Shown in pieces: positions 5,083 through 49,454 of a DNA stretch of 49,454 bases (position 1 is the stretch's first letter; every line of letters starts with the position of its first letter). The stretch is taken from NCBI GenBank assembly GCA_016217735.1, contig JACRGQ010000041.1:1-49454 (forward strand). Reading direction: 5' to 3'. This DNA is from Nitrospinota bacterium. GTDB lineage: Bacteria; Nitrospinota_A; UBA7883; JACRGQ01. Under the pieces are notes generated by a model. It made no database searches. It was not told the DNA's origin and saw only the letters and a program-made list of their open reading frames with translations. Position numbers and translations under genes: made by a program.

Positions 5083-6138
5083 ATGGCAAACGGTAAAATA
5101 AAAGTCCTCATCGTTGACGATTCGGCGGTCGTTCGCAATATCCTCTCCGAGGCGCTTTCCAGCGATCCGGAAATCGAAGTGGTCGGCACCGCGCCCGATC
5201 CGTTCGTGGCGCGTGAAAAGATAGTGCAGCTCAAGCCGGATGTGATTACGCTGGATGTGGAAATGCCCCGCATGGATGGCATCACCTTTTTGCGTAAACT
5301 GATGGCGGCGAAGCCGATGCCGGTGGTGATGGTAAGCGCCATGACCCAGAAAGGCGCGTCCACCACGATGGCGGCGCTGGACGCCGGAGCGGTGGAGATC
5401 GTCGCCAAGCCCCCCATCGACCAGCGCGTGGGGGTGCGCGAGATTCAGCAGGAAGTGGTGGACAAGGTAAAGGCCGCCTCCAAGGCGAAGATGAGTGTTT
5501 ACGCCGCGCAGATCAACCGCAAGCTTGATACCACGGTCATAAAATCGTCCACGTCGCTGCTGAAGACCACCGATAAAATCATCGCCATCGGTTCCTCCAC
5601 CGGCGGCACCGAAGCTCTCAAGGAAGTGTTGGTGCGGCTTCCCACCTCCACACCCGGCATGGTCATTGTGCAACATATGCCCGAAGGGTTCACCAAGGCG
5701 TTTTCCGAGCGGCTGAACAGCCTTTGCCAGATACAGGTCAAGGAGGCCGCGGATGGTGATGCCATTATTCCCGGCCGCGCATTGATCGCCCCCGGCAACA
5801 AGCAGATGATTTTCCGCCGCTCCGGCGCGAAATATTATGTGGAAGTAAAGGAAGGGCCGCAGGTGATGCGCCACCGTCCATCCGTTGAGGTTCTGTTCCA
5901 GTCGGTGGCCAAATTCGCCGGGGCCAACGCCGTTGGCGTGATGCTTACCGGTATGGGGAACGACGGCAGCACCGGCATGCTGGAAATGAAAAAGGCCGGG
6001 GCTTATAATATCGCCCAGGACGAAGCCTCATGCGTGGTTTTCGGCATGCCCAAAGAGGCCATCAAGCTGGGGGGGGTGGATCAGGTGCTCCACTTGGACA
6101 AGATTCCGCAGGCGATGCTCGACGCCGCAATGCGCTGA
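5083..6138 (+). CDS. cheB: Chemotaxis response regulator/protein-glutamate methylesterase CheB
   Basis: Removes methyl groups from receptors and deamidates glutamines when phosphorylated by CheA. The 351 residues contain a receiver domain (about 5-125, acidic pocket Asp12/13, phospho-acceptor Asp58 in ITLDVEMP) and a C-terminal methylesterase with the catalytic triad Ser172 (GSSTGG), His198 (VQHMPEGFT) and Asp294 (GMGNDGSTGM). Length and order are standard. It starts 14 bases after the HPt-CheW stop, with GGAACGG as a weak ribosome site. With CheR it makes an adaptation pair, so the pathway probably uses methylated receptors encoded elsewhere. Confidence 0.95.
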   Translation: MANGKIKVLIVDDSAVVRNILSEALSSDPEIEVVGTAPDPFVAREKIVQLKPDVITLDVEMPRMDGITFLRKLMAAKPMPVVMVSAMTQKGASTTMAALDAGAVEIVAKPPIDQRVGVREIQQEVVDKVKAASKAKMSVYAAQINRKLDTTVIKSSTSLLKTTDKIIAIGSSTGGTEALKEVLVRLPTSTPGMVIVQHMPEGFTKAFSERLNSLCQIQVKEAADGDAIIPGRALIAPGNKQMIFRRSGAKYYVEVKEGPQVMRHRPSVEVLFQSVAKFAGANAVGVMLTGMGNDGSTGMLEMKKAGAYNIAQDEASCVVFGMPKEAIKLGGVDQVLHLDKIPQAMLDAAMR

Positions 6139-6233
6139 CGGCCGGGAGTTTCCCCCGAAGACCGGCAAAAAACATGACGGATGCCGTCAAGTTCAGTTAT
6201 ACTTCTACCGATGAATCCTGCCGGGGGTGTTTT

Positions 6234-7814
6234 TTGAGTATTAAGCTTCTATTTGCCGATGATTCCGTCACCATGCAGAAGGTGATCCAACTCACGCTGG
6301 AGAACGAGAAAGTCGACCTTCTGTTCGCCAGTGACGGAAACAAGGCATTTGCCCTCGCGCGGGAAGAGCGTCCCGATGTGGTTATCGCCGATGTTTATAT
6401 GCCCGGGCTGGACGGCTTTCAGCTCTGTGAAAAGCTCAAAAAAACTACCGAGACCGCCGCCATTCCGGTGATTCTTATTTCCGGCGAACTGGAAAACTAC
6501 GACCCCGCGCAGGGGGCCGCCGCCGGCGCCGTAGGCCACATCACCAAGCCGTTTAAGAGCGGCGAATTCATAGAGCTTATTAAACAATATTCCGGTTCCG
6601 CCGCCGGGGAAGCGCCCAAGAAGGCGGGGAGGGGCAAGGTTAAAACCGTTCCGGCCCCGGTTATGGACACTGAGGCGGAGGATGAAGATGAAGCGTTCGA
6701 GCCGGCGGTGATCGAATTGATTGACCGCGCTGCGGGCGAACCGGCCGACACGCTGGATGCCGGCGAAGAGTTGGAAGTGGTGGACGAGGACATCGACGAC
6801 TTGGCGGAAGACCTGGATGAACTTGATGAAGAGATAGAGGGGGAGATACTGGAAGAGGACGAAGCCGCGGATGAAGAGGAAGAGCCGGCCGCCGCGGCCG
6901 CGCCATCGTCCCGGAAGGGGAGGGTGTCCCTGGATGACGTACTCCCTTCCGCCGGCGAGGTGGACGCGGCTATCGCCCTTGAAGCTGTGCGGGAAACCAC
7001 CGCTTCTCCCGCGGAGGATCTCCGGATTTATGATGACGGTGCGGGCGACCTGGTTGCGGAGGCCCACGGAGCGGATCTTCCTTCCGTCCACATGGAGGAG
7101 GGGGATGACGCCGCGCGTATTTTGGCCGATGTGCTGAATGTGGCCGAGGCGCCTCCCGCGGAGCGGAAAGAAGAGGTGCAGCGGGGGGATGAAGCGTTGG
7201 AAGACGCCCTCGATTCGCTGGATCGCGCGGCTACGGCCCCCACCCCTGAAAAACCGGCGCCGGCGAAGCCGGTGGCTGGCCGCGCCGCGGCGCATGCCCC
7301 CGAAGACGATTTGTGGGACAAATCGCTGGACGAGGTTGACCAGGCGCTGGCCGTTACCGAAGCGGAGCGGGAGCCGGTGAAGGAAGAGGGCAACGACGGC
7401 ATTTGGAATGCCCCCAAACGGGAGTTGGAAGAAGCGGTGCGGCGCGCGGTGGAGACATCCGCCCCGGCGATCATCGCCGCGGAAACCGGCGGTCTGCCGC
7501 CGGAACGGTTGGAAGAGCTGTTCCGCGAAACGGTGGGGCGCGCGGTGGACGAATTTATCGCCGCGCGGGCCGAGGAAGTATTCCGCGGGGAGATGCGCCG
7601 CGCCATCGAGACCCGTTTCAAAGAATCGCTGGACACCCAGATGGAAAAGGTTTTCCGCGAGGAAATCGGCAGGGTGATGGCGGCCGGCTTCCAGAAAGCG
7701 ATGCCCCGGATGCTGGCGATCATCGACAAGATCACTGTCCAGATCACTCCCCGCATCGCCCAGCACATGATAAAAATCGCCATTGAACGCATCAAGAAAG
7801 GCGAGATAAACTAA
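6234..7814 (+). CDS. Response regulator with receiver domain, acidic linker and helical C terminus
   Basis: Last gene of the chemosensory run. The N-terminal receiver (about 1-120) has the acidic pair Asp9/10 (FADDS), phospho-acceptor Asp53 (VIADVYMPGLDG) and the conserved Lys in ITKPFKSGEF. After it comes a long Glu/Asp-rich, low-complexity stretch (roughly 140-225), then an Ala/Pro-rich region, and a C-terminal helical part (roughly 400-526) rich in charged amphipathic repeats. No DNA-binding or enzymatic output is recognisable. I chose the TTG at 6234 because the receiver begins right there after a GGGGGTG site; an in-frame ATG at 6174 would add 20 residues. It may replace CheY as the output of this pathway, which is inference from position. 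Confidence 0.75.
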   Translation: MSIKLLFADDSVTMQKVIQLTLENEKVDLLFASDGNKAFALAREERPDVVIADVYMPGLDGFQLCEKLKKTTETAAIPVILISGELENYDPAQGAAAGAVGHITKPFKSGEFIELIKQYSGSAAGEAPKKAGRGKVKTVPAPVMDTEAEDEDEAFEPAVIELIDRAAGEPADTLDAGEELEVVDEDIDDLAEDLDELDEEIEGEILEEDEAADEEEEPAAAAAPSSRKGRVSLDDVLPSAGEVDAAIALEAVRETTASPAEDLRIYDDGAGDLVAEAHGADLPSVHMEEGDDAARILADVLNVAEAPPAERKEEVQRGDEALEDALDSLDRAATAPTPEKPAPAKPVAGRAAAHAPEDDLWDKSLDEVDQALAVTEAEREPVKEEGNDGIWNAPKRELEEAVRRAVETSAPAIIAAETGGLPPERLEELFRETVGRAVDEFIAARAEEVFRGEMRRAIETRFKESLDTQMEKVFREEIGRVMAAGFQKAMPRMLAIIDKITVQITPRIAQHMIKIAIERIKKGEIN

Positions 7815-7842
7815 TCACCGCCATTAACGCGGGGAATCCCTA

Positions 7843-7848
7843 TATAAT
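7843..7848 (+). promoter_or_regulatory. Candidate -10 box upstream of valS
   Basis: A perfect TATAAT lies between the REC gene and the hairpin that precedes valS. No convincing -35 is seen at the right spacing. If used, transcripts would begin just before the 7861-7884 hairpin, which would then be a 5' leader structure. Confidence 0.35.
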
Positions 7849-7860
7849 ACCGCCATTACC

Positions 7861-7888
7861 GGCCGCCTTTTCATAAAGGCGGCCTTTT
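7861..7888 (+). terminator. Intrinsic terminator-like hairpin
   Basis: Perfect 10-base arms GGCCGCCTTT and AAAGGCGGCC enclose the loop TCAT and are followed by TTTT. It probably ends the chemosensory operon. Because a -10 box lies upstream of it and the valS start is only 22 bases after it, it could also act as an attenuator for valS. Confidence 0.7.
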
Positions 7889-7909
7889 GCATTTATGAGG
7901 TGAGAAGAC

Positions 7910-10537
7910 ATGGAAGAATTGAGCACGCGGTACGAACCGGCTGAAGTAAGCAAACGCTGGTACGCCTATTGGATGGAAAAGGGCTATTTCAAGGCGAAGG
8001 ACGGCGATACCCGCCCGTCGTTCTGCATCGTCATTCCGCCCCCCAACGTTACCGGCTCGCTCCACGTGGGGCACGCGCTGGATAACACCTTGCAGGACAT
8101 CCTTATCCGCCACCGCCGGATGAGCGGCTACAACACCCTCTGGATGCCCGGCACCGACCACGCCGGCATCGCCACCCAGAACGTGGTGGAGCGTGAACTC
8201 AAAAAAGAGGGATTCGACCGCCATCAACTGGGCCGCGAGAAATTCATCGAGCGCGTATGGCAGTGGAAAGAGGAGTACGGCCACAAGATCATCAACCAGC
8301 TTCAGGAACTGGGGGCCTCGTGCGATTGGGACCGCCAGCGCTTCACCATGGACGAGGGGCTGTCCCGCGCGGTGCGCGAAGTGTTCGTCCGCCTCTATGA
8401 AGAGGGGCTGATCTACCGCAGCAACTACATCACCAACTGGTGCCCCCGCTGCCACACGGCGCTTTCCGACCTCGAGGTGGAATACGCCGAACGGAACAGC
8501 CAGTTCTACCACATCAACTATTCGCTGGCGGACGGCGGCGGCGCGCTCACCATCGCAACCACCCGCCCCGAAACGATGCTGGGGGATACCGCTATCGCGG
8601 TGAACCCCGAAGACGAACGCTATAAACGGTTCATCGGCAAAACCGTCATCCTGCCGCTGGTGGGACGCGAGATTCCGGTTATCGGCGACAGCTATGTTGC
8701 GGCGGATTTCGGCACCGGCGCGCTCAAGATCACCCCGGCGCACGATCCCAACGACTTTGAGATCGGCAAGCGGCACAACCTTCCGTCCGTGGTGGTGATA
8801 GGCCGCGACGCGCGGATGCAGAACTGCCCCGAAAAATATGTGGGGATGTCGCGCGAAGAGTGCCGCAAGGCGATAGTGGAAGACCTCAAGGAGCAGGGCT
8901 TCCTTGTGGAGGCGCGGGCGCACAAGAACGCGGTGGGCGAGTGCTACCGCTGCAAAACGGTGGTGGAGCCGAACCTTTCGATGCAGTGGTTCGTCAAGAC
9001 CGCGCCGCTGGCCGAAGAGGCTGTGAAGGCGGTGAAAACCGGCGATATCAAGTTCGTCCCGCAATCGTGGGAGAACACCTACTTCGAGTGGATGAACAAC
9101 ATCCGCGACTGGTGCATCAGCCGCCAGATATGGTGGGGACACCGCATTCCCGCGTGGTACTGCGAGGACTGCGGCCATGTGAACGTGGCGCGCGAAGAGG
9201 TGGTGAAATGCGCCGAGTGCGGCGGCATCACCCTGCGGCAGGAAACCGATGTGCTCGATACCTGGTTCTCGTCGGGCCTCTGGCCCTTTTCCACCCTCGG
9301 CTGGCCGGATAACACCGAAGCGCTGAAGACCTTCTACCCCACCAGCGTTTTGGTGACGGGGTTGGACATCATTTTCTTCTGGGTGGCCCGCATGATAATG
9401 ATGGGCATAAAATTCACCGGCAAGCCGCCGTTCAGCACGGTCTACATCCACGCCCTCGTGCGCGACGCCGAAGGGAAGAAGATGAGCAAGAGCAAGGGGA
9501 ACGTGGTCGACCCCCTGCAACTGATGATGCAGTACGGCACCGACGCGCTCCGCTTCACCATCTGCGCCAACGAAACGCAGGGGCGCGACGCGCGGATGAG
9601 CGAGAAACGGATCGAAGGGTATCGCAACTTCGTGAACAAGCTCTGGAACGCCAGCCGCTTCGTGCTGATGAACAGCGGCGATTACGACGGCACGGCCGAT
9701 CTCTCGAAAATGAAGCTGGAAGTGGCCGACCGCTGGATTTTAAGCCGCCTGCAAAAAACCATTGCCGAGGCCGACGCCGCGCTGGAACAATACCGGTTCA
9801 ACGACCTTGCCAACGCGCTCTACCGCTTCACCTGGGGCGAGTTTTGCGATTGGTACATCGAGCTGACCAAGCCGCGCCTCGTGGCGGGCGACAAAGCCGC
9901 CGTCGCGGTGTTGACGCATGTGCTGGATAACATGCTCCGCCTGCTGCATCCGATAATGCCATTCGTCACGGAAGAGATTTACCAAAAACTTCCCAATCAT
10001 GGCGAGTCGGTGATGATAGCCCCGTACCCCAAGCCGGATACCGCGCGCATCGACGCGGCGGCCGAGGCCGAGATGGAATTGGTGATGGCGCTTGTATCCC
10101 GTGTGCGGGCAATCCGTGCCGAACTTCAGATACCGTTCAGCGTGGAACTCCGCGCGATAGTGAAATGCCGCAACGCCGAAACCGAAGCAAAGGCAAAGGC
10201 GCACGAGCAGTCGTTCCTCAGCCTCACCAAAGCGGCCGGCATTACCTTTGATACCGCCGCCGCCCGCCCGCCGCAGAGCGCCACCGGCGTGCTGGCCGAC
10301 GCGGAGATATATGTGCCGCTCACTGGCATCATTGATTTCGACAAGGAGATCGGGCGCATCCAGCGCGAACTGGCGAAGGTGCAAAAAGAGCTGGCGATGT
10401 TCGATAAAAAATTCGGCGACGAGAATTTCATGAAGAACGCGCCGGAAGAGGTGGTGGAAAAAGACAAGGCCGCTTACGAAGAAGCCCAACGCCGCCAAAA
10501 GGGCTTGGAAGACTCCCTCTCCTGGCTCAATCCCTGA
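7910..10537 (+). CDS. valS: Valyl-tRNA synthetase
   Basis: Class I aminoacyl-tRNA synthetase that charges tRNA-Val in the cytoplasm. The 875-residue product shows the HIGH-type motif HVGH (52-55) within PPNVTGSLHVGHALD and the KMSKS loop at 524-528. Between them lie the editing (CP1) domain with ATTRPETMLGDTA and two Cys-containing zinc-ribbon-like segments (WCPRCHTALSDLEVEY, and a CEDCGH...CAECGG pair). The C terminus is a coiled-coil arm with many Lys/Glu. Length is normal. GAGGTGAG stands 8-10 bases before the ATG. Confidence 0.97.
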   Translation: MEELSTRYEPAEVSKRWYAYWMEKGYFKAKDGDTRPSFCIVIPPPNVTGSLHVGHALDNTLQDILIRHRRMSGYNTLWMPGTDHAGIATQNVVERELKKEGFDRHQLGREKFIERVWQWKEEYGHKIINQLQELGASCDWDRQRFTMDEGLSRAVREVFVRLYEEGLIYRSNYITNWCPRCHTALSDLEVEYAERNSQFYHINYSLADGGGALTIATTRPETMLGDTAIAVNPEDERYKRFIGKTVILPLVGREIPVIGDSYVAADFGTGALKITPAHDPNDFEIGKRHNLPSVVVIGRDARMQNCPEKYVGMSREECRKAIVEDLKEQGFLVEARAHKNAVGECYRCKTVVEPNLSMQWFVKTAPLAEEAVKAVKTGDIKFVPQSWENTYFEWMNNIRDWCISRQIWWGHRIPAWYCEDCGHVNVAREEVVKCAECGGITLRQETDVLDTWFSSGLWPFSTLGWPDNTEALKTFYPTSVLVTGLDIIFFWVARMIMMGIKFTGKPPFSTVYIHALVRDAEGKKMSKSKGNVVDPLQLMMQYGTDALRFTICANETQGRDARMSEKRIEGYRNFVNKLWNASRFVLMNSGDYDGTADLSKMKLEVADRWILSRLQKTIAEADAALEQYRFNDLANALYRFTWGEFCDWYIELTKPRLVAGDKAAVAVLTHVLDNMLRLLHPIMPFVTEEIYQKLPNHGESVMIAPYPKPDTARIDAAAEAEMELVMALVSRVRAIRAELQIPFSVELRAIVKCRNAETEAKAKAHEQSFLSLTKAAGITFDTAAARPPQSATGVLADAEIYVPLTGIIDFDKEIGRIQRELAKVQKELAMFDKKFGDENFMKNAPEEVVEKDKAAYEEAQRRQKGLEDSLSWLNP

Positions 10538-19242: not shown

Positions 19243-21078
19243 TTATTTTTTCGGCAGTTTCGGCACCGGGCGCCGGGGGGTGACGGCCCAGTTGATAAGG
19301 TAGTTGTACATGCGGATGAGGCGGCCCTGATTGCGCTTCTGGTCTATCCAGTGGCCGATCATGCCGATGGTGCGCGCCAGCATGAAGAAGCCGTTCAGCG
19401 AATCGACCGGGTAGCCCATGTCGAGCAGCACACAGCCTATCGTGCCGTCCACGTTGAGGATCAGGTTGTCCTTCTTCGTGGTGGTGATGGCTTGCACCTT
19501 CAAGGCGTAATCCAGGCGCGGCGAGGTGATCTTGTTCTCGCGCACGAACCGGATGATCTCCTCCACCCGCTTGTCGGGGTTCTTGAGGCTCTTCACGCGG
19601 TGGCCGATGCCCGGAACCGGTCCCACTTCCTTCTTCATATAGGCAAGGAAGCCGGGAACGTCGTTCGGGTAGTTCCTCAGGCCGTAATCCATATAGACGG
19701 CCGCGTCGGTTACCGCGCCGCCGAAGCGCGGTCCGATCATGATCATGCCCGCGGCGACGGATTGCGGCAGGCCGATCCCCGCGCAGGCGGCGAGAATGGT
19801 GCCGAACGCGCCGGAGACGGCGGGTCCGTGGTCGGCGGAGAGGATGATTATCCGCTTGATGAGTTCCGCTTCCAGCGGGGTGGGCAGCTTTTTGTTCCAG
19901 AGCAGGCCGATGACGTGGGGAATGTCGTATCCCTCGTTAATCAGCTCGCTGGCCGCATAGCCGCAGTAAAGCGGTTCTTCGCCGCGGTCGTCGGTGATGG
20001 TGTTTTTGAAAAGCGGCTCCACGGCGATGGTGCCGGACTTGAGCCCTTCTTCCACCTTTCTGGGAAGCTGCGGCAGCTCGGACGGCGCGAGGTCTTCCAC
20101 TTTTGTCGTCTGGCCGACGGCCTTCAGGTCTTCATACACCTTCTTGATGGCCGGTCCCAGCGCGCCGAAGGTTTCAGGGACGATGGCCCCGGCCTTTTTC
20201 AGCGCTTCCGCCTTGGAACGGGCCGAGCCTTCGCCGTGGGCTCCTTCTTTTGCGCCCGCGTGGCCGAACTTCATCCCCTTGGGGAGTTTTTCCTGGCAGA
20301 AGCCGCCCACAACGCCGATCAGCTTGATGCGGCGCGGTTTAGCGGCAAGCCATGCGGCGGCCCCTTCTTCGAGGTTGCCCCCCATTTCGCCCACGATGAC
20401 CACGGCCTTGGTGTCCGGGTCTTTTTCGAAAAGCTCAAGGTAGTCCACGAAGTCGGTGACCGGGTAGGAGTCGCCGCCGATGCCGATGGCGGTGGTGATG
20501 CCGTCGGCGAACTGCGAGATGATCCACATGATTTCGTTCGAGAGGCCGCCCGACTTGGTGATGACGCCGAACGAGCCTTGGCGGTAGAGCTTCGAAAGGA
20601 TCAGGTTGTTGTACTCGCCGCCGATCACGCCCAGCCGGGCCTTGCCGGCGGACATGATGCCGATGGCCGAGGGGCCGTTGAGCAGCTTGCCGGTCTTCTT
20701 GGCTTTCTTGATCATCAGCTTGGCGTCTTTCTCCGGCACCCCTTCGGTGATCATGGAGATCGATTTGATGTTCGGGTTGTCCATCGCTTCCATCGCGGCC
20801 GCCGCGGCGCGGGCCGGGCCGATGTAGACCAGCGCGGTGTTGATGCCGCCGTGCGCGGCGGTTGCCTCGCCCAGCGTGGCATAAATCGGCACCGCCACGA
20901 TCTGGCTGCCCACCGGGATGTCGTAGGTTTTGCCGGCGTCCGGCGGATAGACGAACGCTTCGACATAGAACGGGAGGCGGCAAAGGTGGCAGAATTCCCC
21001 CATGCGGCGCGCGGCGTTGACGGCGGCCTGGCCGCCGAGTATCACGACCTTCGTATTATCATTTGCTACAATAGCCAT
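19243..21078 (-). CDS. aclA: ATP-citrate lyase, large subunit
   Basis: Catalyses, with AclB, ATP- and CoA-dependent cleavage of citrate to acetyl-CoA and oxaloacetate, a key step of the reductive TCA cycle. The 611 residues combine a succinyl-CoA-ligase-alpha-like half with the phosphohistidine at His273 (FGHAGAKEGA) and a citrate-synthase-like C-terminal half with SADHGPAVSGAFGT (His417) and GIGHRVKS (His493). Length fits the bacterial two-subunit enzyme (about 608). A GAGGAG ribosome site precedes the ATG. It lies 11 bases after aclB. Without isocitrate dehydrogenase or 2-oxoglutarate synthase genes in view the cycle itself is inferred, not shown. Confidence 0.95.
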   Translation of the reverse strand: MAIVANDNTKVVILGGQAAVNAARRMGEFCHLCRLPFYVEAFVYPPDAGKTYDIPVGSQIVAVPIYATLGEATAAHGGINTALVYIGPARAAAAAMEAMDNPNIKSISMITEGVPEKDAKLMIKKAKKTGKLLNGPSAIGIMSAGKARLGVIGGEYNNLILSKLYRQGSFGVITKSGGLSNEIMWIISQFADGITTAIGIGGDSYPVTDFVDYLELFEKDPDTKAVVIVGEMGGNLEEGAAAWLAAKPRRIKLIGVVGGFCQEKLPKGMKFGHAGAKEGAHGEGSARSKAEALKKAGAIVPETFGALGPAIKKVYEDLKAVGQTTKVEDLAPSELPQLPRKVEEGLKSGTIAVEPLFKNTITDDRGEEPLYCGYAASELINEGYDIPHVIGLLWNKKLPTPLEAELIKRIIILSADHGPAVSGAFGTILAACAGIGLPQSVAAGMIMIGPRFGGAVTDAAVYMDYGLRNYPNDVPGFLAYMKKEVGPVPGIGHRVKSLKNPDKRVEEIIRFVRENKITSPRLDYALKVQAITTTKKDNLILNVDGTIGCVLLDMGYPVDSLNGFFMLARTIGMIGHWIDQKRNQGRLIRMYNYLINWAVTPRRPVPKLPKK

Positions 21079-43592: not shown

Positions 43593-44840
43593 ATGCCGAT
43601 TAACAGCGTATTGGTGGTGGATGACGAGCCGGATGTACTCGAAATAACGGCGCATTTTCTCCACGGCAAGGGGTTTGATGTGGCCCGCGCCACGAATGGC
43701 GCGGATGCTTTGCGGCTGGCGGCCGGCAACGTCCCCGATGTTGTGTTGTTGGATATCTCCATGCCGGGGATGGACGGCATTGCCGTGCTCAAGGAACTGA
43801 GGGTGAAGCACCCCTCCACTGAAGCCATCATGATCACCGCCCACAACGAGGTGGCGACCGCCATCACGTGCATGCAGGAGGGGGCTTACGGCTATCTGGT
43901 GAAACCGCTCGATTTCAATCAGCTCCATCTGGAGGTGAGCCGGGCGCTGGAACACCGCCGGATGGCGCTGGCATTGGACGATTTCCACAAAAACCTGGAA
44001 CTGAAGGTGGAGGAGCGCGCCGGGGAGGTGCGGCGGCTCAACGAGAAGCTCCGGGAGAATTTTCTCGCCTCGGTCCGCGTGCTGATGAGCCTGCTGGAAG
44101 TGTATGAGCCGTACATGGGGAGCCACCTCAAGCGGGTGGGGGCGCTGGCGGTGGAGATGGGGCGCGCGCTGAACCTGCCGGAAAGGGAGCGCGAGGACCT
44201 GGAGATCGCCGCCCTGTTGCACGATATCGGCCGTGTGGCGCTTCCCGACGAGCATGTCCACGCCGGTTTTAACGAGCTCCCGGCGGAACACATCTCTTAC
44301 GTCAAGCAGCACACCGTCATCGCCCAGCATATCCTTTCCCCTTCCGGCGAGCTGGAGAACGCGGGGAAAATCATCCGCAGCATGCACGAGCATCTCGACG
44401 GCAGCGGCTTTCCCGACGAGTTGCGCGATGATGATATCCCGCGCCTTTCCCGCATACTCGGGGTGATAAACGCCTACGACGAGCTGGTGCATCGCCGCCG
44501 TTTCACCCACGAGCATATCGGCAGCCACGAGGAAGGGGATGTCTTCGCCCTGCGGCACCTCTATTCGGTGGCGGGACGGCATTTTGAGCGCCGCATCATC
44601 GAGGCGCTGGAGAAGGTGCTGGAAGACGTGCGGATTCGCGAGCGCAACGAGGTGAGGCTGACCGTGCGGGAACTCAAGCCGGGTATGCAATTGGCGCGGG
44701 ACATCTACACGCACGAGAGGCTGTTGCTGCTTGGAAAGGGGAGCACGCTCACATCGTTGCACATCAAGCGGATCGAGGCGTTTTGCCGGATGAAAATGGT
44801 GAATAACGAATTTTTCACCGTACACGGCGGCATCGCCTGA
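43593..44840 (+). CDS. Response regulator with degenerate HD-GYP-like output
   Basis: A 415-residue two-component regulator. The receiver (about 1-120) has Asp10/11, phospho-acceptor Asp54 (VLLDISMPGMDG) and Lys in YLVKPLD. A coiled coil (about 130-165) connects to an HD domain with LLHDIGRVALPD. The HD-GYP consensus HHExxDGxGYP is altered to MHEHLDGSGFP: the first His of the pair is Met and GYP is GFP. The later DALTSxRPY box is also changed (YDELVHRRRF). It may be a weak or inactive c-di-GMP phosphodiesterase. No GGDEF gene lies nearby. GGGAG stands 8 bases before the ATG. Confidence 0.85.
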   Translation: MPINSVLVVDDEPDVLEITAHFLHGKGFDVARATNGADALRLAAGNVPDVVLLDISMPGMDGIAVLKELRVKHPSTEAIMITAHNEVATAITCMQEGAYGYLVKPLDFNQLHLEVSRALEHRRMALALDDFHKNLELKVEERAGEVRRLNEKLRENFLASVRVLMSLLEVYEPYMGSHLKRVGALAVEMGRALNLPEREREDLEIAALLHDIGRVALPDEHVHAGFNELPAEHISYVKQHTVIAQHILSPSGELENAGKIIRSMHEHLDGSGFPDELRDDDIPRLSRILGVINAYDELVHRRRFTHEHIGSHEEGDVFALRHLYSVAGRHFERRIIEALEKVLEDVRIRERNEVRLTVRELKPGMQLARDIYTHERLLLLGKGSTLTSLHIKRIEAFCRMKMVNNEFFTVHGGIA

Positions 44841-44975: not shown

Positions 44976-46373
44976 ATGGAAACCCCTTTAATACTGATAG
45001 TTGACGATGAACCGGACAACCTTGAGGTACTGGAAAGCCGTTTGACCCGGCGCAATTACCGTGTCGTCTCAGCCGATAGCGGCGTGAAGGCACTTAAATT
45101 GCTAGAGGAAGTAGAGCCGGATATGGTTTTGCTGGACGTGATGATGCCGGGGATGGATGGGTTTGAAACACTCACCCGGATGAAAGAGATGAGAAAAGGG
45201 GTTTTTATGCCGATCATCCTCGTTACCGCGCAGGACGACAAGGAAAGCCGCATCAAGGGGCTTGATACCGGCGCGGACGATTATGTGACCAAGCCGGTCG
45301 ATATAGACGAACTGATGGCCCGCATCCGGGCGATGCTCCGCATAAAAGACCTCAAGCGGCAGATCACCGCCAAGGACCGCGAGATCAGCCGCCTTTCGCG
45401 CGAGTTGAAGGAAACCAACCGTTATCAGGACATCATCGGCGCGAGCGCCGTGATGAAAGAGTTGGGCGACAGGATACGCGGCGCCGCCGGCATCGGCAGT
45501 CCCGTGTTGATCGAAGGGGAGAGCGGCACCGGCAAAGAGCTGGTGGCCAAGGGCATCCACTACGCGTCGACGCGGGCGGAGCGCCCCTTCATCGCGGTCA
45601 ACTGCGCCGCGCTTCCCTCCGAATTGATCGAGAGCGAACTGTTCGGGCACCGGAAGGGGGCATTCACCGGCGCGATGGTTGCCGCCGAGGGACTTTTCAA
45701 GGCCGCCGACGGCGGCACCATTTTTCTGGACGAAATCACCGAAATGCCCGTGGAGGTTCAGGCGAAGATGCTGCGCGTGCTGCAGGAGGGGACGGTTCGC
45801 CCCGTCGGCGGCACCGGGGAAACGCCGATCAACGTCCGCGTCGTCGCCGCCACCAACATCGATGTGGGGCGCGCCGTCAAGGAAGGAAAGCTGCGCGAAG
45901 ACCTGTACTACCGCATCAATGTGTTGAACATCAAGCTGCCGCCGCTGCGCGCCCGCAAAGAGGACATTCCGTTGCTGGCGCAGGGGATTATCGAGCGGCT
46001 CAATGCCCGTTTCGGCCGGCGGGTGAAAGGGATCTCCGCCGGGGCGCTGGCGGCTCTCGCCCGGCACGATTGGCCCGGCAACGTGCGCGAACTGCAAAAC
46101 GTGATCGAGCGCTGTTTCTCCCTTCCCGATATCGAGGTGATTGAAGAGCGGCACATCCAGATAGCGCCGCTGGCCGGTTCGCGGGAGACGCCCGCCGCCG
46201 TTCCTGTTCCGGCGGATGGGGGGGATGTTCTTTCGCTCGACGAGGCCGAGAAGAAACTGATACTTTCCGCCCTGGCAAAAACCGGCAACAACAAACTCAA
46301 GGCGGCGCAACTGTTGGGCATCCACCGCTCCCGGCTTTACAAGAAGCTGGAGCGGTATGGCATTAAAGATTAG
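44976..46373 (+). CDS. Sigma-54-dependent response regulator (NtrC family)
   Basis: Transcription activator that opens sigma-54 promoters after phosphorylation. The 465 residues have a receiver (about 5-122, Asp54 in VLLDVMMPGMDG, Lys in VTKPVD), a short coiled coil, the AAA+ domain (about 150-385) with Walker A GESGTGKE (181-188), GAFTGA loop (228-233) and Walker B TIFLDEI, and a Fis-type helix-turn-helix at the C terminus (NNKLKAAQLLGIHRSRLYKKL). All sigma-54 contact residues are present. No histidine kinase gene is adjacent. It is followed after 24 bases by the membrane redox pair, which may share its transcript. Confidence 0.95.
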   Translation: METPLILIVDDEPDNLEVLESRLTRRNYRVVSADSGVKALKLLEEVEPDMVLLDVMMPGMDGFETLTRMKEMRKGVFMPIILVTAQDDKESRIKGLDTGADDYVTKPVDIDELMARIRAMLRIKDLKRQITAKDREISRLSRELKETNRYQDIIGASAVMKELGDRIRGAAGIGSPVLIEGESGTGKELVAKGIHYASTRAERPFIAVNCAALPSELIESELFGHRKGAFTGAMVAAEGLFKAADGGTIFLDEITEMPVEVQAKMLRVLQEGTVRPVGGTGETPINVRVVAATNIDVGRAVKEGKLREDLYYRINVLNIKLPPLRARKEDIPLLAQGIIERLNARFGRRVKGISAGALAALARHDWPGNVRELQNVIERCFSLPDIEVIEERHIQIAPLAGSRETPAAVPVPADGGDVLSLDEAEKKLILSALAKTGNNKLKAAQLLGIHRSRLYKKLERYGIKD

Positions 46374-46397: not shown

Positions 46398-47303
46398 ATG
46401 AGCGAGCACAAGAAACTGGTTGCGGAGGGGAGCCCCCTCCTCCCGTTGATTCTCACCGCCATCGGTATCATCGTTTTGGCGCTGGTATTCGCTGAGAGCT
46501 ATTTGGAACTGACGGGACAACCGTTCACCTTTCTGGATGTAGCGCATAAAAGCGGTTTGCTCACCGGCTATCAGGTGGCTACCCAACCCAACCGCGGCAT
46601 CTGGCATCTCGTTGGCTGGATAGGCAGCGCCTGTTTCGTTATCATGATGCTCTATTCGATGCGGAAGCATTTCAAGTTCATGCAGAACGTCGGTCCCATC
46701 CGCTATTGGCTCGACATTCACATGTTTCTGGGAATCGTCGGCACCCTGCTGGTGACGGCGCACAGCACCTATAAGTTCGGCGGCATCGTGGCGCTGTCCT
46801 ACTGGTCGGCCGTGCTGGTGGCGGTCAGCGGCTTCCTGGGCCGCTATCTGTATGTGCAGATTCCCCGCTCCATCTCCGGGCAGGAACTGAAGATGGACGA
46901 GATCAACGAGATAATGGACGACATCACCCTTGAGATCGAAAAGTTCGCCAAAGGGCAATACGACGTCCAGCATTATTTCGAGCGGATAGCCGGGCCAAAG
47001 CCCGATCGCCAGCTCAGCGCATTCGGCGCGTTGATGGCGCTGTTCACCACCGACATAAAAAACATGGCCACGATGTATGGCATATGGCGCGGCCTCAAGG
47101 CCAACAGGCGGATACCCGATCATGTGCGGAACCGCATCTTCAAGCTGATACGGGAAAAGGGGCGGCTGGTGCGCTCCATCGAGTTCCTCGAGGCGTCGCA
47201 CAAGCTGCTGCACTACTGGCACGTGTTCCACAAGCCGTTCGCCATCATCATGTTCATCGTCATGTTCCTGCATGTCGGCGTGTACTACGTCTTCCGCATC
47301 TGA
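46398..47303 (+). CDS. Dihaem b-type-like membrane protein
   Basis: A 301-residue integral membrane protein with about five hydrophobic helices (about 13-33, 70-90, 105-125, 130-152, 278-300) and a cytoplasmic-looking loop at 155-265. Two helices each carry a His pair spaced H-x13-H: His108/His122 and His278/His292. This is the layout by which ferric-reductase/NOX-type proteins hold two stacked b haems. Further His lie at 70, 268, 272 and 275. It has an AGGAGG site and is followed after 7 bases by the Fe-S/FAD gene. Together they look like a transmembrane electron-transfer module. Haem binding is inferred from spacing only; I do not recognise a named family. Confidence 0.7.
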   Translation: MSEHKKLVAEGSPLLPLILTAIGIIVLALVFAESYLELTGQPFTFLDVAHKSGLLTGYQVATQPNRGIWHLVGWIGSACFVIMMLYSMRKHFKFMQNVGPIRYWLDIHMFLGIVGTLLVTAHSTYKFGGIVALSYWSAVLVAVSGFLGRYLYVQIPRSISGQELKMDEINEIMDDITLEIEKFAKGQYDVQHYFERIAGPKPDRQLSAFGALMALFTTDIKNMATMYGIWRGLKANRRIPDHVRNRIFKLIREKGRLVRSIEFLEASHKLLHYWHVFHKPFAIIMFIVMFLHVGVYYVFRI

Positions 47304-47310
47304 GGCATCC

Positions 47311-48651
47311 ATGGACGCGTTGCTGAACCTTGTCATTCAAAACATCACCCTGATCGCGGGGGCGGTGATCATTCTGGCGGTGGTGGGACCCTACCTGCTT
47401 CTGCAAAAGCGCGGCTCCCAAAAAATGTCGAAGGAGATCGAGCGGGCCAAGCAGTACGGCCTCTCCGAGCCGGCCACCATCCATCCCAAGGTGAACCGGG
47501 CCATCTGCATCGGTTCCGGCAGCTGCATCAACGCCTGTCCCGAAAAAAATGTGCTGGGGATCGTGGATAACAAGGCGGAAGCGGTTTACGCATCCCGCTG
47601 CGTCGGCCACGGCGCCTGCGCCCGCGCCTGCCCGGTGGGGGCCATCGAACTGGTGTTCGGCACGGAAAAGCGCGGCGTGGACATTCCGCAGGTGATGCCG
47701 AACTTCGAATCCAACATGGAGCATATATTCATCGCCGGCGAACTGGGCGGCATGGGGCTTATCCGCAACGCGATGACGCAGGGGATGGAATCCGTCGGCT
47801 ATATCGAGGAAGACCTCAAGGCCGGGCATTTTCCCAAGGAGCCGGGCGTATACGATCTCCTCATCGTGGGCGCCGGGCCCGCCGGGCTGGCCGCCTCGCT
47901 TACCGCCAAGAGCAAGAACCTGAATTACATCCTGCTCGACCAAGAAGAGGAATTCGGCGGCGCGATCCTCTCCTATCCGCGCGCCAAGGTGGTCATGACC
48001 CGTCCGGTGGAAGTGCCGATCTACGGAAAAATAAGAACCGGCGAGTTGAGCAAGGAACAGCTTCTTGCGCTCTGGAAGGACATCATCGCCAAGGCGCAGC
48101 TCGAAGTGAACGGCAACGAAAAGGTGCTGAGCCTCACGCGCGATACCACGAAGTTCATCGTGAAAACCTCCAAGAGGGAACTGTTGACCCGCTTTGTGCT
48201 TCTGGCCATAGGCCGCCGCGGCACGCCGCGCAAACTGGGGGTGCCGGGCGAAAAGCTCCCCAAGGTCATGTACCGCCTGCTGGAGCCGGAGCATTACAAC
48301 GGACAGAAGATATTGGTGGTGGGCGGGGGCGACAGCGCCGTGGAAGCGGCCGTCGCGCTCGCCAAACAGGAGGGGAACGAAGTGACGCTCTCCTACCGCG
48401 GCCCAACCTTCTCCCGCATCAAGGCGGGGAACCAAACACGGATTGACGCGGCGGTGAAGGCCGGCAAGGTGACGCTGATGATGGAATCAAACGTGCGGGA
48501 GATCAAGGCAAATGCGGTGACGTTGGAACAGAAGGGGCAAACCGCCGCCATTCCCAACGACTCGGTGTTCATTTTCGCCGGCGGCATCCTGCCGAACGAC
48601 TTCCTGAAAGAGTGCGGCATCGCCATCGAAACCAAGTTCGGCACCCGTTAA
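47311..48651 (+). CDS. Membrane-anchored Fe-S/FAD NAD(P)-binding oxidoreductase
   Basis: A 446-residue protein with an N-terminal membrane helix (about 9-31), a two-cluster ferredoxin-like domain (about 58-118), and a thioredoxin-reductase-like flavin domain: FAD loop LLIVGAGPAGLAAS (about 183-196) and NAD(P) loop ILVVGGGDSAVEAA (about 334-347). The Fe-S motifs are odd: C66-IG-S69-GS-C72-INA-C76-P and C97-VG-H100-GA-C103-ARA-C107-P. In each the second Cys of CxxCxxCxxxCP is replaced (Ser, His). Thus clusters could be [3Fe-4S] or have Ser/His ligands. The redox-active CxxC of thioredoxin reductases is absent. It probably passes electrons between NAD(P)H and the b-haem partner encoded just upstream. 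Confidence 0.8.
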   Translation: MDALLNLVIQNITLIAGAVIILAVVGPYLLLQKRGSQKMSKEIERAKQYGLSEPATIHPKVNRAICIGSGSCINACPEKNVLGIVDNKAEAVYASRCVGHGACARACPVGAIELVFGTEKRGVDIPQVMPNFESNMEHIFIAGELGGMGLIRNAMTQGMESVGYIEEDLKAGHFPKEPGVYDLLIVGAGPAGLAASLTAKSKNLNYILLDQEEEFGGAILSYPRAKVVMTRPVEVPIYGKIRTGELSKEQLLALWKDIIAKAQLEVNGNEKVLSLTRDTTKFIVKTSKRELLTRFVLLAIGRRGTPRKLGVPGEKLPKVMYRLLEPEHYNGQKILVVGGGDSAVEAAVALAKQEGNEVTLSYRGPTFSRIKAGNQTRIDAAVKAGKVTLMMESNVREIKANAVTLEQKGQTAAIPNDSVFIFAGGILPNDFLKECGIAIETKFGTR

Positions 48652-49407: not shown

Positions 49408-49454
49408 TGGAGCGGGAGACGGGATTCGAACCCGCAACCTTCAGCTTGGGAAGC
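49408..49454 (-). tRNA. tRNA-Gly(CCC), 3' part
   Basis: Read on the - strand the end of the window gives the anticodon loop TTCCCAA (anticodon CCC), a variable region, the T arm GCGGG-TTCGAAT-CCCGT, the acceptor strand CTCCCGC, discriminator T and an encoded CCA. The T73 and the strong resemblance to bacterial tRNA-Gly support glycine. The 5' half lies beyond the window. Confidence 0.9.

Follow-up and report, generated by a model that had tools for sequence, protein, structure and literature searches.

The stretch of DNA analysed here, referred to as the window, comprises 49,454 nucleotides from a Nitrospinota bacterium and carries a pair of adjacent genes on the forward strand. The second gene (47311..48651, +) encodes a flavoprotein subunit of 446 residues, defined by the open reading frame call together with Pfam, NCBIfam and PDB matches. 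Its architecture is a transmembrane (TM) anchor, a ferredoxin domain with six cysteines and an apparently circularly permuted FAD/NAD(P)H domain. The N-terminal anchor, residues 12–31 (47344..47403, +), corresponds to the hydrophobic stretch ITLIAGAVIILAVVGPYLLL and is a helix in weak structural models. The first gene (46398..47303, +) lies directly upstream, with 7 bases from its end to the flavoprotein start, and encodes a membrane partner of 301 residues with five TM helices, which is assigned to the PCC3 type by comparing its signature with the published one (PMC5566968).

Two regulators are encoded upstream of the pair: a response regulator with an HD (HD-GYP-like) domain (43593–44840) and a sigma-54 response regulator (44976–46373), with 25 bases between the end of the latter and the membrane partner. 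A sigma-54 response regulator is also found upstream in the two closest relatives (loci L019 and L020), and control of the pair by a two-component system is possible. Elsewhere in the window, a protein encoded on the reverse strand (19243–21078, −) combines citrate-synthase C-terminal and CoA-ligase domains in the manner of ATP-citrate lyase, an indication of a reductive TCA cycle. A partial tRNA occupies the end of the window (49411–49454, −; Rfam RF00005, 29.5 bits).

The ferredoxin domain of the flavoprotein contains two Fe-S motifs. Motif I is C66-x2-S69-x2-C72-x3-C76-P (residues 66–77, CIGSGSCINACP; 47506..47541, +), with Ser69 encoded at 47515–47517, and motif II is C97-x2-H100-x2-C103-x3-C107-P (residues 97–108, CVGHGACARACP; 47599..47634, +), with His100 encoded at 47608–47610. 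Thus, the domain lacks the eight cysteines of the 2[4Fe-4S] CxxCxxCxxxCP pattern, as Ser69 and His100 replace the second cysteine of each motif. It nonetheless matches the dicluster fold profile PF13237 (Fer4_10) with 38.3 bits, the cut-off being 25.5. There are exactly six cysteines in the domain, and the only further one in the protein, C435, is not conserved. The initial annotation had described both motifs as missing the second cysteine, leaving six in the domain, and this is exact in the sequence and conserved in homologues.

Homologues were collected from 385 genomes spread over the bacteria and from one Emticicia oligotrophica plasmid, and conservation was assessed in the 38 full-architecture proteins. 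Searching whole genomes proved much more fruitful than a single-protein contig scan, which returned just two near-identical relatives from Nitrospinales MAGs (89–90% identity). The six ferredoxin cysteines are invariant in all 38 proteins, and position 100 is His in 37 and Ile in one. Residue 69 is Ser in 19, Cys in 16, Thr in two and Met in one, so that of the two residues that an alignment might have found fixed, only His100 nearly is. All 14 Nitrospinota proteins have the Ser69/His100 combination, as does the protein from the plasmid, which belongs to an isolate, is 48% identical and was the one good relative in a plasmid search; its annotation is only 'NAD(P)-binding domain-containing protein'. 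That plasmid (strain DSM 17448) also encodes the membrane partner and two multihaem cytochromes. These three counts (38/38, 37/38 and 14/14) argue that the six-cysteine pattern is neither chance nor error. A decayed gene or a sequencing error, which the departure from the textbook eight-cysteine pattern could have indicated, is effectively ruled out by the presence of the same residues in independent genomes and on the Emticicia plasmid.

The history of the two substitutions was followed on a family tree built without columns 69 and 100. The tree contains a split (support 98/96) between 15 proteins, all with Cys69, and 23 proteins, 22 of which have another residue, and two changes between Cys and non-Cys at position 69 suffice to explain the distribution. 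In the sub-clade of the window's protein, position 69 varies and is mostly Ser, Thr or Met, while the sister sub-clade has Cys and is therefore a seven-cysteine form, exemplified by L043 and L047. On these sequences His100 is a family-wide feature and residue 69 separates the two halves of the family. A joint loss at the same place in both motifs, as originally suggested, is consequently not right, because His100 is common to the whole family whereas Ser69 is confined to one sub-clade. Homologues with all eight cysteines, named as a finding that would overturn the proposal, were absent among the 38 full-architecture proteins.

In dicluster ferredoxins, each cluster is held by three cysteines of one motif and the last cysteine of the other. 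By analogy, both clusters are likeliest to be [3Fe-4S], because the characterised ferredoxins with CXX(H/S)XXC motifs are of this type. In Mycobacterium marinum, ferredoxins with His, Asn, Thr, Tyr, Ser or Phe at the second position occur, and the non-Cys set came out as [3Fe-4S] from aerobic and anaerobic isolation alike, its potentials spanning −340 to +230 mV (PMC6237146). A less probable arrangement, compatible with the same complex, is one in which Ser and His each supply the fourth ligand of a [4Fe-4S] cluster. His ligation is known in hydrogenases, Asp at this very position supports the [4Fe-4S] form of a Pyrococcus ferredoxin (both discussed in PMC6237146), and the near invariance of His100 is as expected of a ligand. 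Against this, all of the characterised M. marinum non-Cys ferredoxins were obtained as [3Fe-4S], even anaerobically, the His imidazole is not a ligand in two structures of His-bearing ferredoxins (PMC9868604), and relatives have Thr, Met or Cys in place of Ser69. In the seven-cysteine relatives, cluster I should, from the binding pattern of dicluster ferredoxins, be an ordinary [4Fe-4S] cluster.

The [3Fe-4S] ferredoxins of P450 systems, with the pattern CXX?XXC(X)nCP (Child et al. 2018, PMC6237146; PMC9868604), share the replacement of the second cysteine by His or Ser. They differ in being small, soluble, single-cluster proteins, whereas the present two-cluster domain is altered in each of its motifs and is part of a membrane-anchored flavoprotein. 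Nor is the flavoprotein a small ferredoxin encoded beside a P450: it is a 446-residue fusion with two motifs, and the genes around it encode the membrane partner, regulators and a GDSL lipase.

The remainder of the flavoprotein (47851..48648, +) consists of an FAD-binding Rossmann domain (GAGPAG, residues 187–192) and an NAD(P)H domain (GGGDSA, residues 338–343). Residues 181–440 match two-dinucleotide-binding flavoproteins (PF13738, E=4e-44), and both the FAD and NAD(P) motifs are conserved across the 38 homologues. R363 and R369, which follow GGGDSA, are invariant in homologues and, by comparison with thioredoxin reductase (TrxR), suggest a preference for NADPH. Among solved structures, Bdr/YpdA come closest (7a7b, E=4e-32), and enzymes of this type run about 50 residues beyond the point at which the flavodomain stops. 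A candidate for the missing part, a relocated C-terminal FAD strand-helix, is present at residues 114–170 (47650..47820, +; ETN..FIAGELGG..LI.NA..QG), after the ferredoxin domain and ahead of the Rossmann motif, as indicated by profile matches and a re-ordered alignment. A profile of this segment (A2) matches the C-terminal FAD segments of GltD, the small chain of glutamate synthase, and of dihydrolipoyl-dehydrogenase-type enzymes. These matches are individually weak (E 0.007–0.05), and all eight are to two-dinucleotide-binding flavoproteins. When the segment was returned to the C-terminus, the alignments to both Bdr/YpdA structures became longer, rising from 115.2 to 120.2 and from 106.6 to 111.1 bits. 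From the segment-profile matches and the longer Bdr alignments after re-ordering, it is concluded, at the level of sequence, that the flavodomain is circularly permuted. AlphaFold models were weak owing to shallow alignments (pLDDT 39 and 54); in a Foldseek search with the latter, YpdA and TrxR folds were at the top, with the ferredoxin domain unplaced and the permutation unproven in three dimensions.

From these solved relatives and Foldseek matches, the protein could be read as a disulphide reductase of the thioredoxin or bacillithiol type whose ferredoxin domain is vestigial. This reading is disfavoured and highly improbable. There is no CxxC outside the Fe-S motifs, so the TrxR disulphide is missing, the GGGPCG of YpdA is GAGPAG here, the NCBIfam model for YpdA gives 166.3 bits against a cut-off of 339.9, and the ferredoxin cysteines are invariant. 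The flavoprotein shares with YpdA/Bdr and TrxR-type proteins (7a7b, 7a76 and 2zbw) the two-dinucleotide-binding fold and the FAD and NAD(P) motifs, and differs from them in being permuted, in lacking the catalytic cysteines and in its fusion to a TM anchor and a ferredoxin domain.

A sister group (L022, L063–L065, L067, L068 and L071–L074), several members of which have the permuted domain, lacks the N-terminal ferredoxin and instead carries a membrane part and, at the C-terminus, an ordinary ferredoxin with the second cysteine present. Four of its permuted members (L063, L064, L068 and L022) have the same flavodomain as the window's protein, at 31–40% identity, with the ferredoxin at the opposite end and the second cysteine in both motifs. 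Multihaem neighbours were absent from the loci seen for these four.

The membrane partner carries the motif W104-x3-H108-x13-H122 on TM3 (46707..46763, +), SGFLG on TM4 (an SGXXG motif with S144; 46827..46841, +) and W274-x3-H278-x13-H292 on TM5 (47217..47273, +). All four histidines are invariant in 26 diverse homologues, 21–63% identical to the window's partner, as is the Trp of the TM5 motif, and two b haems are predicted from this pattern. Neither the partner nor the porin candidates described below matched a Pfam family above cut-off, and against the FRD family (PF01794) the partner scored 10.5 bits, below the cut-off of 28. The inner-membrane protein of PCC3 and PCC4 is defined by WX3HX13H on TM3 and TM5 and SGXXG on TM4 (He et al. 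2017, PMC5566968). With five TM helices, two WX3HX13H motifs and SGXXG, the partner has this signature, and it shares the length of about 300 residues with the PCC3 protein (PMC5566968); the likeness is one of described signature.

He et al. likened the PCC3/PCC4 inner-membrane protein to the haem-b domain of NOX and ferric reductases, with a link to the quinone pool that was hypothetical (PMC5566968). The likeness to NADPH oxidases and ferric reductases (FRD, PF01794) would extend to the pair as a whole, with cytoplasmic NAD(P)H and a flavin on one side, two stacked b haems on HX13H pairs, and electrons leaving on the far side, as is proposed for the flavoprotein–partner complex. In contrast to those enzymes, the flavodomain is unrelated and Fe-S clusters would be placed between the flavin and the haems.

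At a threshold of E about 1e-48 or better, the partner profile (A1) matched 40 of the 385 genomes: all 35 that have the full flavoprotein and five of the other 350 (Fisher p about 1e-44). In 27 of 38 loci the genes are no more than 120 bases apart, and in two they are fused into one polypeptide (L049, 946 residues; L056, 753 residues). The initial annotation had proposed a membrane-anchored Fe-S/FAD/NAD(P) protein with a b-haem partner and had asked whether that partner co-occurs; adjacency, co-occurrence and fusions all bear this out.

Outside Nitrospinota, multihaem cytochromes with 8–52 CxxCH motifs, often exactly 20, are found beside the pair in 22 of 24 loci, and both exceptions are cut by contig ends. 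At 14 control loci with other flavoproteins of the superfamily there were none (p=1e-8 for 0/14 vs 22/24). Pfam places the cytochromes in the Cytochrome_C7/c3 families, with similarity to MtrC/MtrF domains. Many loci also encode a nearly cysteine-free protein of 420–600 residues that ends in ..GYRF, ..YRF/..YQF or similar, an ending typical of outer-membrane barrels, and these neighbours are predicted to be porin-like. A porin-like protein and two multihaem cytochromes are found in one cluster in loci such as L040, L047, L048 and L043, which, judged by gene content, are PCC3-type conduits with an added NAD(P)H subunit. The resemblance to the described PCC3 clusters (PMC5566968) includes multihaem cytochromes of about 20 and 20–40 haems together with the porin-like protein. 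The difference is that PCC3 as described has four genes and the quinone pool as its partner, whereas the present loci add an NAD(P)H-FAD-ferredoxin subunit. The circular permutation of the flavodomain and the link to multihaem cytochrome/porin conduits had not been part of the initial annotation.

Among Nitrospinota, loci of the window's family (L080–L083) have a cytochrome of 29–38 haems and a porin-like protein beside the pair, and another locus of this family (L084) has a 23-haem cytochrome and a porin. In a second Nitrospinota family with the pair, most loci have no cytochrome nearby. The 49 kb of the window lack a multihaem cytochrome: two or more CxxCH motifs occur in a single gene, that of a di-haem peroxidase, and the locus does not show the PCC3 combination of a porin clustered with two multihaem cytochromes. 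On another contig of the same genome (C63), a protein of 957 residues with 30 CxxCH motifs (L109:4897–7767) is 38% identical to the L082 cytochrome, and next to it a porin-like protein of 430 residues ending in LDYRF (L109:3608–4897) is 32% identical to the neighbour of that L082 cytochrome. The window's complex probably uses this 30-haem cytochrome. The genome also contains a second, distant paralogue of the partner (contig C42, L093:7846–8694), with no flavoprotein beside it and directly followed by a 9-haem cytochrome (L093:8697–9503), and a multihaem cytochrome cluster with 5, 9, 13, 3, 19 and 17 CxxCH motifs (contig C40, L108).

The main reading, to which a probability of roughly 0.7 is given, is that the flavoprotein and the partner form one inner-membrane complex that connects the NAD(P)H of the cytoplasm with the cytochromes of the periplasm by electron transfer. 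The best reading of its role is as the NAD(P)H entry for PCC3-type conduits. Here, the FAD of the permuted flavodomain would take up a hydride from NAD(P)H, and single electrons would travel over the ferredoxin domain's two Fe-S clusters to the two b haems held by the four histidines of the WX3HX13H motifs, the two subunits presumably being in physical contact. From these haems electrons would reach the giant multihaem cytochromes, cross the outer membrane through the porin and leave the cell by the PCC3-type conduit. A [3Fe-4S] cluster would have a potential above that of a normal [4Fe-4S] cluster, which would suit the oxidation of NAD(P)H and not chemistry at the level of ferredoxin. The potential of NAD(P)H is about −320 mV and the gene clusters contain no recognised ion-coupling subunit, and for these two reasons the flow is taken to be outward. 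Counting against the main reading, a multihaem cytochrome is missing from the window's own locus, most loci of the second Nitrospinota family have no cytochrome close by, and in some genomes the partner and cytochromes occur without the flavoprotein.

The main rival is that the quinone pool is the working partner of the membrane protein, with the flavoprotein as an NAD(P)H oxidoreductase of separate or regulatory function that either reduces quinone with NAD(P)H or receives external electrons by way of quinone. This is the model of the PCC3 literature, in which structural similarity of the inner-membrane protein to quinone-active cytochrome b was noted (PMC5566968). It also draws support from clusters that lack the flavoprotein. 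L091, a cluster of four genes, encodes a partner 35% identical to the window's, 20- and 19-haem cytochromes, the former 42% identical to that of L040, and a porin-like protein, and L092 likewise has the partner and cytochromes. As such clusters have the same make-up otherwise, the flavoprotein is a module, and quinone-linked use of the partner is possible. What makes the quinone rival rather unlikely for the pair is the 35/35 co-occurrence, the direct adjacency and the two in-frame fusions, together with the finding that the same class of partner adjoins other cytoplasmic Fe-S/NAD(P)H modules. In L099 (G287, 5577–10134), a partner relative and a 6-haem cytochrome lie between NuoF-like and NuoG-like genes, apparently another type of NADH module beside the same partner class; in L097 the partner class has a fused multi-4Fe-4S domain; and in L069 it is beside an unpermuted flavoprotein with cNMP and 4Fe-4S domains.

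An inward flow, in which extracellular donors such as Fe(II) would reduce NAD(P)+ via the conduit, the haems and the flavoprotein, is considerably less probable still. PCC3 is mostly considered in connection with iron oxidisers (PMC5566968, PMC10734462), and flavoproteins of this type can be reversible. However, reducing NAD(P)+ with Fe(II) at neutral pH is strongly uphill, and electrons moving inward oppose the membrane potential in clusters where an ion-coupling subunit is not recognised. Moreover, S. lithotrophicus ES-1 down-regulated PCC3 on Fe(II) (PMC8788666).

Further support for a shared function of the NAD(P)H–conduit gene set comes from its independent retention by phages. Viral contigs (IMG/VR) include a jumbo-phage family with a seven-cysteine flavoprotein at 47–48% identity (loci L111/L128, L112/L130, L129 and L131–L134; L145:6849–7295, L146:1006–1452 and L149–L152). 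A contig of 328 kb with genes for the terminase large subunit (E=2e-216), head closure, ribonucleotide reductase and ClpX-like proteins encodes a miniature membrane partner of 149 residues that keeps both WX3HX13H motifs and has SGVIG. This mini-partner adjoins a small barrel-like protein, and a barrel-like protein also lies beside the contig's c7-family cytochromes with 4 and 7 CxxCH motifs; across the family, the phage cytochromes have 4–5 and 7. The whole set is repeated on a second phage contig, and a third, a fragment, has the flavoprotein and cytochromes and no partner. No full-length relative was present among the INPHARED phages. A phage-borne trans-envelope electron chain is a possible reading of these genes. 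The broader proposal, that a widespread quinone-bypassing module leads from cytoplasmic NAD(P)H, by way of a pair of non-standard Fe-S centres and the two b haems, directly to trans-envelope haem wires and that its jumbo-phage miniature drains or redirects the reducing power of the host to the surface in infection, is tentative and falls somewhat short of even odds.

The individual parts are of known kinds and, as far as the literature searched extends, their coupling is undescribed. The suggestion of an undescribed complex therefore holds for the coupling to the flavoprotein and not for the membrane half, whose PCC3/PCC4 signature was described in silico in 2017 (PMC5566968). He et al. mention unnamed 'redox genes' in PCC4 (PMC5566968), which might be related to the flavoprotein. 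A literature search that was short of most subscription papers and preprints returned no account of an NAD(P)H flavoprotein tied to PCC3 and none of phage multihaem cytochromes.

The well-known systems by which Gram-negative bacteria send electrons outward start from the quinone pool. If the proposed complex is real, it would be a quinone-independent entry for sending electrons outside, and it would give the orphan PCC3 inner-membrane protein a testable function. It would also help to explain why the Fe-S centres are tuned to something other than the low potentials of ferredoxin chemistry, and the phage version would be an unexpected viral route into the redox balance of the host. The generic name given to the Emticicia relative is a warning for annotation pipelines. 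Taken as proposed, the complex suggests a little-known route by which electrons pass from metabolism to the cell surface.
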